Assembly: GCA_903922175.1 (NCBI GenBank)
Contig: CAIXSY010000197.1
Location: 1 to 35,375 of the forward strand
From: an uncultured delta proteobacterium
GTDB taxonomy: Bacteria; Bdellovibrionota_C; UBA2361; CAIXSY01
Direction of reading: 5' to 3'
Length of the DNA stretch: 35,375 nt
Each line of letters begins with the position of its first letter. Positions within the stretch are counted from its first letter, which is position 1. Shown piece by piece: positions 4,285-35,334 of this stretch. Under the pieces are notes generated by a model. The model saw only the letters and a program-made list of their open reading frames with translations. It did not search any database and was not told the origin of the DNA. The position numbers and the translations under genes were made by a program.

Positions 4285-4340
4285 TTCCTAGCGAGGCTTC
4301 GCCTCAGACCGACCAAGCATTCTCCCGTGCACCTGCACGC
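4285..4340 (-). repeat. Dispersed element 'B' (CGTGCAGGTGCACGGGAGAAN..GGTCTGAGGCGAAGCCTCGCTAGGAA), in the mrcA 5' leader
   Basis: Matches 18641-18676 and 27246-27336; contains the GAGGCgaaGCCTC mini-hairpin directly upstream of AGGAA-N4-ATG of mrcA. Confidence 0.75.
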
Positions 4341-4401: not shown

Positions 4402-4410
4402 AAGAAGAAA

Positions 4411-4504
4411 GGCTGACAGCAGATCTCTGAGAGCTGCTTACAGAAGGCAGAGAGCAGGCAGGCGACACGAGTCTCTTCGGCACGAATGCGCGAGTTGGTT
4501 CGAC
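4411..4504 (-). repeat. Dispersed element 'A' (head plus heptamer array), minus orientation
   Basis: Reverse complement reads GTCGAACCAACTCGCGCATTCGTGCCGAAGAG...CTGCTCT CTGCCTT CTGTAAG CAGCTCT CAGAGAT CTGCTGT. Confidence 0.75.
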
Positions 4505-9517: not shown

Positions 9518-9548
9518 TGCGGCCAGAGAAGAAAGTTTGATCTTATCG

Positions 9549-9656
9549 TTGAACCGAGCCGCGCATTCGCGCGGAAGAGCCTGTAATCTGCTATCTGAGA
9601 TCTGCAGTCAGCTATCAGCCGTCAGCTGTCTGCATCAGATTCAGCTGCAGCATCAG
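9549..9656 (+). repeat. Dispersed element 'A': head GTTGAACCGAGCCGCGCATTCGCGCGGAAGAG plus heptamer array (8 units, 9581-9636)
   Basis: Near-identical head and array to 18419-18525; array has strict 7-nt phasing. Confidence 0.85.
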
Positions 9657-9685
9657 TTGCGGCCGCAGCCGACGGCCTTAGCCGT

Positions 9686-9721
9686 CTTGTCCCCCGTAGC
9701 ACTTGCCGCGAGGCAAGGCGA
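9686..9721 (-). repeat. Dispersed element 'C', minus orientation (TCGCCTTGCCTCGCGGCAAGTGCTACGGGGGACAAG)
   Basis: Reverse complement nearly identical to 17551-17582. Confidence 0.75.
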
Positions 9722-9727
9722 GGTTAA

Positions 9728-9776
9728 GTAGGGACGCTACCGACTTTTTTTAAGATAAAATCGGCAGCGTCCCTAC
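9728..9776. repeat. Hairpin element 'D' GTAGGGACGCTACCGA...TCGGCAGCGTCCCTAC
   Basis: 16-bp arms with one mismatch; same sequence family as 35292-35334. Confidence 0.85.
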
Positions 9777-17395: not shown

Positions 17396-17550
17396 CTCAA
17401 ATCTCCTCAACGAACGACCGCGTTAACATCACAACTCGTACAACCTCGGCGTAAGACAAGATCCTAGCCAACCACATTTGAAATTTGGGAAATCCCAATA
17501 GCTTCTGATGGATGCTAGCATTAAATACATTTTGGACAAACCTTCCTACT

Positions 17551-17587
17551 TCGCCTTGCCACGCGGCAAGTGCTACGTAGGACATGC
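17551..17587 (+). repeat. Dispersed element 'C' (TCGCCTTGCCACGCGGCAAGTGCTACGTAGGACATGCC)
   Basis: Same as 9686-9721 (reverse) and 24696-24721. Confidence 0.75.
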
Positions 17588-18418: not shown

Positions 18419-18525
18419 GTTGAACCGACCCGCGCATTCGCGCGGAAGAGAGAGTGGAACATCCTGTAATCTGCTGTCTGAGATCTGCAGTCAGCTGTCT
18501 GCATCAGATTCAGCTGCAGCATCAG
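18419..18525 (+). repeat. Dispersed element 'A' with 6-unit heptamer array (18464-18505)
   Basis: Same head and order of heptamers as 9549-9656 minus two units. Confidence 0.85.
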
Positions 18526-18640
18526 ATGCAGTCAGCGGGAAGCTGCCTGCAGATCTCTCCCGTCACGGCTCTCGCCGAGCCGTGGTCTGGAGGTTGGTGA
18601 AACACCTTACAGCGAGAGACGGAGAAAGCTGATTACAGAT

Positions 18641-18676
18641 CAACGCTCGTCGGTCTGAGGCGCAGCCTCGCTAGAT
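18641..18676 (+). repeat. Dispersed element 'B' (AACGCTCGTCGGTCTGAGGCGCAGCCTCGCTAGAT)
   Basis: Matches reverse complement of 4285-4320 and 27305-27332. Confidence 0.7.
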
Positions 18677-22798: not shown

Positions 22799-23018
22799 GA
22801 ATAACAGTATCAACTGAATTGTGAAGTTCGACTAGCAACCTTTTTGAACGGCTAGCTGGCTGGATATATTACACAATCACTCATCGAGCGAGGCAAGTTG
22901 CAACCAGCTTACGGCTAACAGAGGACAGAAACTGAAAACAGCAACTACCAACTGACACAGTCGCAGCTAATTACTGAGAGAAACAGCACGCGTGCCAATT
23001 CTCGGCAAACTTTTTGTG

Positions 23019-24622: not shown

Positions 24623-24871
24623 CGCAAAAAGTCTTGGCGGGGGTAACTCGCGATCCCCCTTCGCCCGGCCGTGCGGCCGGAGCTACGGCGGACATGCGCG
24701 GCAAATGCTACGTAGGACAAGACGGGGGATATAGCAGACCCATTTAGAGTCGCTTCCCCCTTCGCTCGACCTTCCGCCGTCGCTCGGCCTCGCGGCCGAA
24801 GCTATGGCGAGACGGGCTGCGGTCGATGCTACTGGGGACAATCCGCGACAAGACTTTTTGCGTCTGCTATA
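24623..24871. repeat. Mosaic intergenic element bounded by inverted repeats, containing two diverged copies of a compound unit
   Basis: CGCAAAAAGTCTTG (24623-24636) and CAAGACTTTTTGCG (24849-24862); TATAGCAGAC (24730-24739) and GTCTGCTATA (24862-24871); internal copies of element C at 24696-24721 and 24817-24842. Confidence 0.75.
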
Positions 24872-24932: not shown

Positions 24933-25256
24933 ATGAAACACTTCAGGATTTTACAAGATTATGCTATGCTGCAATCCATGTTAGAGCGAACCTCTGATAA
25001 ATCTTGGGAGCAAGTAAGACAAGCACACCCACATCAGTGGGTGGTGATTGAAGCCCTACGATCTCATTCCAATGCGAGTAAACGCATTGTAGATGCCATT
25101 GAGGTGATAGACACTTTCGACGACAGCGAAAAGGCGCTGCGGGAGTACTTAAGACTTCATAAGCAGGACCGGAGTAAAGAACTCTACGTCGCTCACACCG
25201 ACAAAGAGGCGCTTGATATTACGGAACAGAAATGGCTCGGAATACGTCCTGCATAG
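24933..25256 (+). CDS. Hypothetical small soluble protein
   Basis: HPHQWVVIEALRSHSNASKRIVDAIEVIDTFDDSEKALREYLRLHKQDRSKELYVAHTDKEALDITEQKWLGIR reads as a conserved compact domain; family not named. Confidence 0.7.
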   Translation: MKHFRILQDYAMLQSMLERTSDKSWEQVRQAHPHQWVVIEALRSHSNASKRIVDAIEVIDTFDDSEKALREYLRLHKQDRSKELYVAHTDKEALDITEQKWLGIRPA

Positions 25257-25334
25257 TTCCACTGCAAATAATATCATCTTTGCCATTCGTCTCGGCGGTG
25301 AATCTCTCTGTGAGAGATAGGACTATTACTTTAA

Positions 25335-25400
25335 GGAAGCTCTGAAATATTCGTGGTACGGACCGCTAACGCGGCCGCACACGAATATTTCAGAGCTTCC
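25335..25400. repeat. Perfect 21-bp inverted repeat GGAAGCTCTGAAATATTCGTG / CACGAATATTTCAGAGCTTCC, 24-nt loop with nested CCGC-GCGG
   Basis: Direct comparison of 25335-25355 and 25380-25400. Confidence 0.95.
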
Positions 25401-25683
25401 CTAGAGCGGGCGGGGCCTTGTCTTTGGATTCCGTTCGACTTCCTTCATGATCTTTCCAAATCAGAACGTACCCCGAGCCACACTTAGTGCAAACGCACGG
25501 TGTTACCGTCTCAATGGCACCACCATCCTCGTTGCGAACTGAGTCATATTCCGGCCCTGTTGTCTTGGCAAATACCATTAAGTAATTGCAGATCGGGCAC
25601 CGCTTCGGGCGGTAATTGAGAATCACGGCATATAGAAAAAACGCTACTGCGAAGCCAATTATGGTGATTAAAATAGTTGTCAT
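25390..25683 (-). CDS. Small TM plus zinc-ribbon-like protein, hypothetical
   Basis: MTTILITIIGFAVAFFLYAVIL then CPIC...CVCTKCG. Start re-assigned to 25683. Confidence 0.6.
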   Translation of the reverse strand: MTTILITIIGFAVAFFLYAVILNYRPKRCPICNYLMVFAKTTGPEYDSVRNEDGGAIETVTPCVCTKCGSGYVLIWKDHEGSRTESKDKAPPALGKL

Positions 25684-30156: not shown

Positions 30157-30224
30157 CATAACTTCTCTCCCTGTACAGATAGGAGGAGTGCGGTGGGCTG
30201 CGGCTGGGAGCTGCAGCTGCATTA

Positions 30225-30320
30225 GGTGCAGTCAGCAGAATGCTGATGGCAGATCTCTGAAAACGGCTAGCAGCCAGGCGGCACGAGGCACTTTCCGCCA
30301 GAATGCGCGGGTACAGCTTA
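30225..30320 (-). repeat. Dispersed element 'A', minus orientation, 7-unit heptamer array (30225-30273)
   Basis: ggtgcag tcagcag aatgctg atggcag atctctg aaaacgg ctagcag, then head-like ...CCGCCAGAATGCGCGGGTACAGCTTAAC. Confidence 0.65.
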
Positions 30321-30374
30321 ACAAGGGAGTTACCCCCGATTGAACTCTTCCCCCTTTTCCGCTAGCCTCCCCTC

Positions 30375-35138: not shown

Positions 35139-35291
35139 GAGCGCAGAAACCTCCAGCGTTCAACAACTTCTTAATCAACCATTACTTCACCAACCATAAG
35201 GATATCGGATAAACTCTTAAAAGACTTCACGATTCGGAGCGCTTCTGCGGACGTCAGGGCGCAAGAATTATTTTTAACGCGAAAATAAATA

Positions 35292-35334
35292 GGGACGCTA
35301 CCGACTTTCCTCAGGATAAAGTCGGTAGCGTCCC
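35292..35334. repeat. Hairpin element 'D' GGGACGCTACCGACTTT-cctcaggat-AAAGTCGGTAGCGTCCC
   Basis: 17-bp perfect stem, 9-nt loop; second copy of the element at 9728-9776. Confidence 0.95.

Follow-up and report, generated by a model that had tools for sequence, protein, structure and literature searches.

What is the repeat that begins at position 9548 of the window (the whole stretch of 35,375 nucleotides analysed here), in which a hairpin-forming head is followed by a run of unlike but related 7-mers? The preliminary description had read it as a free-standing 'head plus array' unit. The copies elsewhere in the genome speak for a different arrangement: the repeat is probably a terminal arm, left solo, of a mobile element that is non-autonomous and present in many copies, with the head as its outer end and with a coding part of one or two S23 (PF05635) genes for four-helix-bundle proteins.

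The dispersed element is represented in the window at 9548-9660 and 18419-18529, in both cases between protein genes, and the first of these copies consists of a 32-base head, eight heptamers and the centre (Table 1). Its eight heptamers are exactly those listed previously, and the second copy indeed has six heptamers in the same order; the element had also been located correctly, but the head begins one base before the claimed 9549. The remaining two of the four window copies mentioned earlier are the old ones on the minus strand. The sevenfold periodicity, which had been proposed as a check, is pronounced, with a lag-7 identity of 0.65 and a lag-14 identity of 0.67 across the left arm, against a window mean of 0.25 (s.d. 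0.065), and position 9578 is the top lag-7 site in the entire window.

Table 1. Features of the repeat copies in the window, with coordinates counted from its first base
Feature	Position	Strand	Basis
Head (outer terminus) GTTGAACCGAGCCGCGCATTCGCGCGGAAGAG, with hairpin CCGCGC-ATTC-GCGCGG	9548-9579	+	90 genomic copies; sharp boundary at first base; hairpin in fold
Left arm, eight degenerate heptamers (genome mode seven)	9581-9636	+	Lag-7 identity; anchor spacing
Centre AGATTCAGCTGCAGCATCAGTTGCGGCCGCAGCCGACGGCCTTAGCCG; corresponds, read backwards, to the sequence 3′ of the S23a stop codon in copies with S23	9637-9684	+	
Separate hairpin module CTTGTCCNNCGTAGC..GCGAGG, at the point from which other copies extend into S23	9683-9721	+	
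Second copy, head	18419-18450	+	
Second copy, left arm, six heptamers	18464-18505	+	
Second copy, right arm, inverted heptads, interrupted at 18557-18624	18519-18648	+	
68-bp palindrome CTCCGTCTC..GAGACGGGAG (also given as CTCCGTCTCTCGCCGCAAGGTGTTTCACC..GAGACGGGAG), inserted in the right arm	18557-18624	-	
Alternative outer end, head2, CTAGCGAGGC..GCCTCAGACCGACGAGCGTTGA	18640-18674	-	
Isolated head2 hairpin CTAGCGAGGCTTCGCCTCAGACCGAC	4288-4313	+	
Old degenerate copy, arm and head	about 4409-4504	-	Sequence
Old degenerate copy, centre, arm and head	about 30194-30322	-	Sequence

Further copies, the other check suggested at the outset, are plentiful in the genome of the window (4,793,122 bases, or 4.79 Mb, in 432 contigs). 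BLAST returned at least 44 matches to the element (the best 40 of 226 candidates were scored), and a pattern search recovered 90 heads with no more than two mismatches, 46 in forward and 44 in reverse orientation, compared with none for the reversed-pattern control; the genome thus has at least 90 copies of the head. Neither of the two outcomes named beforehand as refuting the observation has therefore occurred. An alignment of the copies on the head gives an information content of 0.09 bit just outside it (position -1) and of 1.34 bits at its first base (position 0); this step marks GTTGAACC as the true left end of the element. Many contigs of this genome break within these repeats, so that the assembly contains too few of the copies and of the intact elements. 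The suggested search of relatives, in turn, led no further than the own genome: DNA of the head plus array had no match in 56 relatives, and among 46 genomes of the class, arrays of CAGCTAT were likewise confined to the own genome. A scan of the genome_contigs set for the head pattern gave no match either.

The arrays change in whole units. Between two fixed anchors, the spacing in 41 copies was 24 (6 copies), 31 (27), 38 (3), 45 (1), 52 (1), 66 (1) and 37 (2), so that a single residue class modulo 7 holds 39 of the 41 values, and 12 of the 14 non-modal copies differ from the mode by a multiple of 7 (P = 5 × 10−9 versus random indels). This bears out the earlier proposal that a dispersed intergenic element gains or loses its degenerate heptamers unit by unit, a change here measured between paralogous copies of one genome rather than between strains. 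The length polymorphism described for the two window copies, eight against six units, is also real; however, the commonest full-length array has seven units, and the difference therefore comprises one gain and one loss. Slippage is the likely cause of these changes in array length. Perfect runs in several copies, such as (CAGCTAT)x8 in L027, together with the variable unit counts, would equally suit a simple tandem array of the STRR type, grown in place by replication slippage, but some 90 sites, whose flanks are unrelated, share one head, one ordered succession of dissimilar heptamers and one centre. Slippage cannot disperse copies and is therefore refuted as the sole process, which leaves growth in place a very improbable account.

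Many copies possess a second, inverted arm that ends in an alternative outer end, head2 (CTCGTCGGTCTGAGGC..GCCTCGCTAG); head2 alone gave 327 candidates, and more than 20 of the best 40 scored had at least 95% identity. In L003, each arm contains eight units, which pair unit by unit, and the left and right arms of the 18419 copy make up an arm-to-arm palindrome with an RNA fold z-score of -5.8, that of the 9548 copy being -3.0. The 68-bp palindrome inserted in the right arm of the 18419 copy recurs inside heptad arms at other loci (L051, L056, L072, L110 and L122).

Such strong folds might be taken to signify a regulatory or terminator RNA that is selectively kept at each site. Against this, Rfam returned no match, both strands and every degree of decay are represented among the copies, and where copies differ in the head hairpin, most of the changes are single and have no compensating partner; we regard selection for an RNA as highly unlikely. 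The ends of some copies, GTTGAAC and GTTTAAC, bring to mind the GTTRRRY/RYYYAAC-like boxes of an integron-type recombination site (attC), although the copies are dispersed and do not form cassette arrays. Moreover, the boxes face outward in these copies, opposite to their orientation in attC, and this reversed order disfavours the integron reading, to which we assign hardly any probability.

The nature of the element emerges from its longer copies, in which the centre leads into a repeated stretch that codes, on the opposite strand, for a protein ending in ...LDRAASSIVLNLAEGRGRGTKADQKRFFHMAFGSVRECQAILDISPEPSADAVKLADVVAANVYCLIRSYG and a stop codon. At the end of this gene, S23a, the codons for ...YCLIRSYG and the stop are followed by GGCCGTGGGCTGCGGCCGAAAGCTGCAGCTGC and inverted heptads, the array starting soon after the stop codon. 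The encoded protein belongs to the S23, or 23S-rRNA-intervening-sequence, family (23S_rRNA_IVP, PF05635), whose members, known from intervening sequences (IVSs), have no known function (PMC4990558). An intact paralogue, S23b, scores 60.0 bits against PF05635 (cut-off 33.8) and 60.8 against TIGR02436 (cut-off 24), and its sole PDB match is 2gsc, protein XCC0516. Altogether, the genome contains 43 PF05635 matches, 32 of them above the cut-off, and 14 control genomes contain none.

The array runs into S23a in 25 of the 90 copies, the S23 remnant lying 114-316 nt inward of the head, whereas 10 heads belong to arm-to-arm palindromes, another 49 stand solo and the copies of the remaining 6 extend past a contig end. 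Some copies of this genome carry divergent S23 pairs (L351; C356:11415-11942), and clear heptads are found on the S23a side only. The S23 copies inspected lie between genes and not in a 23S rRNA helix. In the window, neither blastn nor tblastn detected an S23 remnant in either copy, and the PF05635 and TIGR02436 matches come from other family members. For the two window copies, the link with S23 is drawn from other members of the family, and the 49 solo heads among the 90 count against it; we infer that the 9548 copy is a solo arm and the 18419 copy a two-armed, arm-to-arm palindrome, both remnants of an S23 element.

S23 genes were present in 22 of the 46 genomes of the class (a phylum-level search gave the same 46 genomes), and divergent pairs like those of the own genome were found in G002, G011, G015, G034 and G037. 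Seven pair proteins show 49-56% identity to the first, with 27 invariant columns. The 3′ flanks of these pairs harbour heptamer arrays of a sequence different from that in the window, namely (CGGCTAA)x17 in L349, AACAGAG/AACGGCT in L348, AGCTACC/CTGATAC in L350 and a degenerate ACTGANA in L338. After pair and solo types had been split by HMM, lag 7 was raised at the pair-type S23 genes of relatives relative to 286 control windows (P = 5 × 10−11), as was lag 14. In the divergent-pair elements of relatives, direct and inverted repeats are about equally frequent in the outer flanks. Another S23 subtype in relatives, with an HEKL/HEKF N-terminus, is followed by degenerate 6-bp arrays in place of 7-bp ones (lag 6, P = 1 × 10−9; L328, L331, L353, L369, L370, L374 and others).

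The association extends well beyond the class. With the measure unchanged, we examined a hold-out set of 60 new S23 loci from distant genomes, drawn from the best-scoring S23 matches, with some genomes contributing two. As 12 of 48 controls drawn from the same loci showed a lag-7 enrichment of their own, the 3′ flanks of 77 metH genes served as an independent control. Mean lag-7 identity was 0.578 in the S23 3′ flanks compared with 0.399 in the metH flanks (P = 1.9 × 10−11), lag 14 was raised too (P = 1.8 × 10−6), and none of the other lags from 4 to 13 was significantly raised. Using a threshold of 0.5 for lag 7, arrays were identified in 40 of the 60 S23 flanks as opposed to 5 of the 77 controls (P = 2.5 × 10−14), the other 20 S23 flanks having no lag-7 array at this threshold. 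The upstream flank was also raised at lag 7 (0.55), and the 5′ and 3′ flanks were reverse-complementary in 38 of the 60 loci above the 99% cross-locus null of mismatched pairs, compared with 4 of 60 in direct orientation (inverted versus direct, P = 6.5 × 10−8). Single S23 genes are thus bordered, as a rule, by inverted arms; in the plasmid set alone, the excess of inverted over direct orientation was not significant (P = 0.07).

The pattern is easy to see on named cyanobacterial plasmids, with (AGTAGGG)n - S23 - (TCCCTAC)n on pNe_5 of Nostoc edaphicum and S23 genes bordered by AGGTGAC/TGTCACC in Anabaena sp. 90, GGGAACA/TGTTCCC in Nostoc sp. C052 and GGGTGTA/TACACCC in Calothrix brevissima. 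On these named plasmids, the S23 gene often stands amid operon neighbours (cas6/cas4, cas10/cmr3, two ribonucleotide reductase genes). On three cyanobacterial plasmids (L501, L502 and L504), S23 genes lie in CRISPR operons, cas6-cas4 or cas10-cmr3, with heptamer arrays in two of the three, a position that may explain the listing of S23 among CRISPR-associated domains (PMC10910872). The open PMC literature, outside which most subscription papers fall, yielded no account that connects S23 genes with heptamer arrays. Tentatively, and with somewhat more doubt than confidence, S23 genes across bacteria could be the core of one very widespread class of intergenic mobile elements with inverted degenerate heptamer arrays as ends, in which S23 would recognise the 7-bp rhythm, as a hairpin of DNA or RNA, and take part in the spread; the arrays of cyanobacteria and other phyla would then be its remains.

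How the copies came to be dispersed bears on a further explanation, in which a genomic transposase, for instance one of the Y1/HUH type, mobilises an ordinary MITE or REP-type element, with S23 as a chance passenger and the heptamers without meaning. Fixed ends, subterminal hairpins and the lack of terminal inverted repeats suit the HUH type, and the genome has four Y1_Tnp genes, one of which is flanked by another hairpin repeat. The repeats beside that gene, however, are of a different family, and a chance passenger does not explain why S23 plus heptamers recur in distant genomes with unrelated sequences; we therefore consider this explanation unlikely. The Y1 transposases were also considered as the cognate enzyme, in the manner of a REP/REPIN with its RAYT, and rejected, none of the four Y1_Tnp loci having matches to head, arm or head2.

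In its general form, the element does resemble MITEs, REPINs and other small dispersed palindromes (PMC3116915), being a short, non-coding intergenic palindrome with many copies and fixed ends that is specific to a lineage; it differs from them in the 7-periodicity of the arms and in the continuity with an S23 gene. Its ends are not uniform (GTTGAACC, CTAG... and GGAATCTA), a CTAG target is clear in one case, and neither an autonomous partner nor a terminal inverted repeat common to the element and a transposase gene was found.

As for mobility of the S23 element, L099 shows one copy that has inserted into another at CTAG, and 3 of the 12 pair elements examined are flanked by direct repeats (24-98 bp) of non-heptameric sequence. 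These repeats, of about 98, 24 and 49 bp, lie outside the divergent S23 pairs L338, L339 and L341 of G002 and are possibly long target duplications of variable length. Taken together with the well-defined ends and the large number of copies, the CTAG insertion and the direct repeats point to mobility; no empty site, active transposition or cognate enzyme or transposase was found, and among the 90 heads there was no inward-facing pair within 3 kb enclosing an autonomous gene.

We infer the following course for the mobility of the element and the part of S23 in it. The heptamer arrays would act as inverted ends that zip into a stem and leave the S23 ORF in the loop, as in a 23S rRNA IVS, though at an intergenic site. 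Their periodicity would let the two arms go on pairing once a unit had been gained or lost, so that the arrays could drift in unit number through slippage or recombination. An enzyme supplied in trans might disperse the copies, and those that lost their S23 centre would persist as solo arms, such as that at 9548, or arm-to-arm palindromes, such as that at 18419. The proposed binding of the arms by the S23 protein is the least certain step of the scheme.

One of the closest known counterparts is the IVS itself, which is inserted in a helix of the 23S rRNA and is cut from the rRNA by RNase III. An S23 gene and stem-forming complementary ends are common to the IVS and the present element, and the distant single S23 genes (38 of 60) have an ORF bordered by complementary sequences, whereas the window copies are without an ORF. 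In IVSs with an S23 ORF, such as that of Coxiella burnetii, the ends are likewise complementary and the ORF lies in the loop (PMC4990558). The element described here differs in residing between protein genes, in having heptamer arrays as ends, in often carrying two divergent S23 genes in the class and in occurring in tens to hundreds of copies.

The heptameric STRR arrays of cyanobacteria and the TAACTGA arrays of Beggiatoaceae are intergenic as well (PMC4679880), and they consist of 7-bp units scattered over unrelated bacteria; no transfer mechanism is evident for them, and they were described with no mention of S23 (PMC4679880). The analogy with STRRs drawn in the preliminary description is apt in that cyanobacterial plasmid S23 genes are flanked by heptamer arrays and in that the tandem 7-bp units vary in number, but the array here does not stand free: its units are degenerate and ordered, and head, centre and S23 belong to the same, larger repeat. 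The GGGAATC and GGGGA(C/T)T heptamers of Xanthomonas and Nostoc, studied as G-quadruplex formers, similarly form intergenic arrays, also as inverted repeats, and S23 neighbours are not reported in those parts of the account on which we draw (PMC4692102). Intergenic heptamer arrays of bacteria have been recorded without an agreed origin, and their joint occurrence with S23, in inverted arrangement and across numerous unrelated genomes, connects two hitherto isolated observations and opens both to testing.

Other repeats share the window with the element. A second hairpin repeat, AGTAGGGACGCTACCGAC..GTCGGTAGCGTCCC, occupies 9727-9776 and 35290-35334, and in L209 (1334-1414 and 2135-2291; contig C338) its copies flank a Y1 transposase gene on both sides, an arrangement suggestive of a REP and its associated RAYT. 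The hairpins of a third family, TGTCCNNCGTAGC..GCGAAGNNGGA, are found at 9683-9721, 17543-17584 and 24654-24728, with covarying outer stem bases; exact-pattern copies of this family number 97 in the own genome, with lower counts in 12 further genomes of the class, and its copies appear nested in one another's loops and within S23 C-termini. A 27-base inverted repeat at 25329-25406, 93% complementary with a 24-base loop, lies just past the end of an ORF at 25256. Finally, another lag-7 peak (0.55 at 22903, within 22860-22990), perhaps an old heptad remnant, is located upstream of the methionine synthase gene, the product of which is 69-73% identical to those of Oligoflexia/Deltaproteobacteria MAGs.
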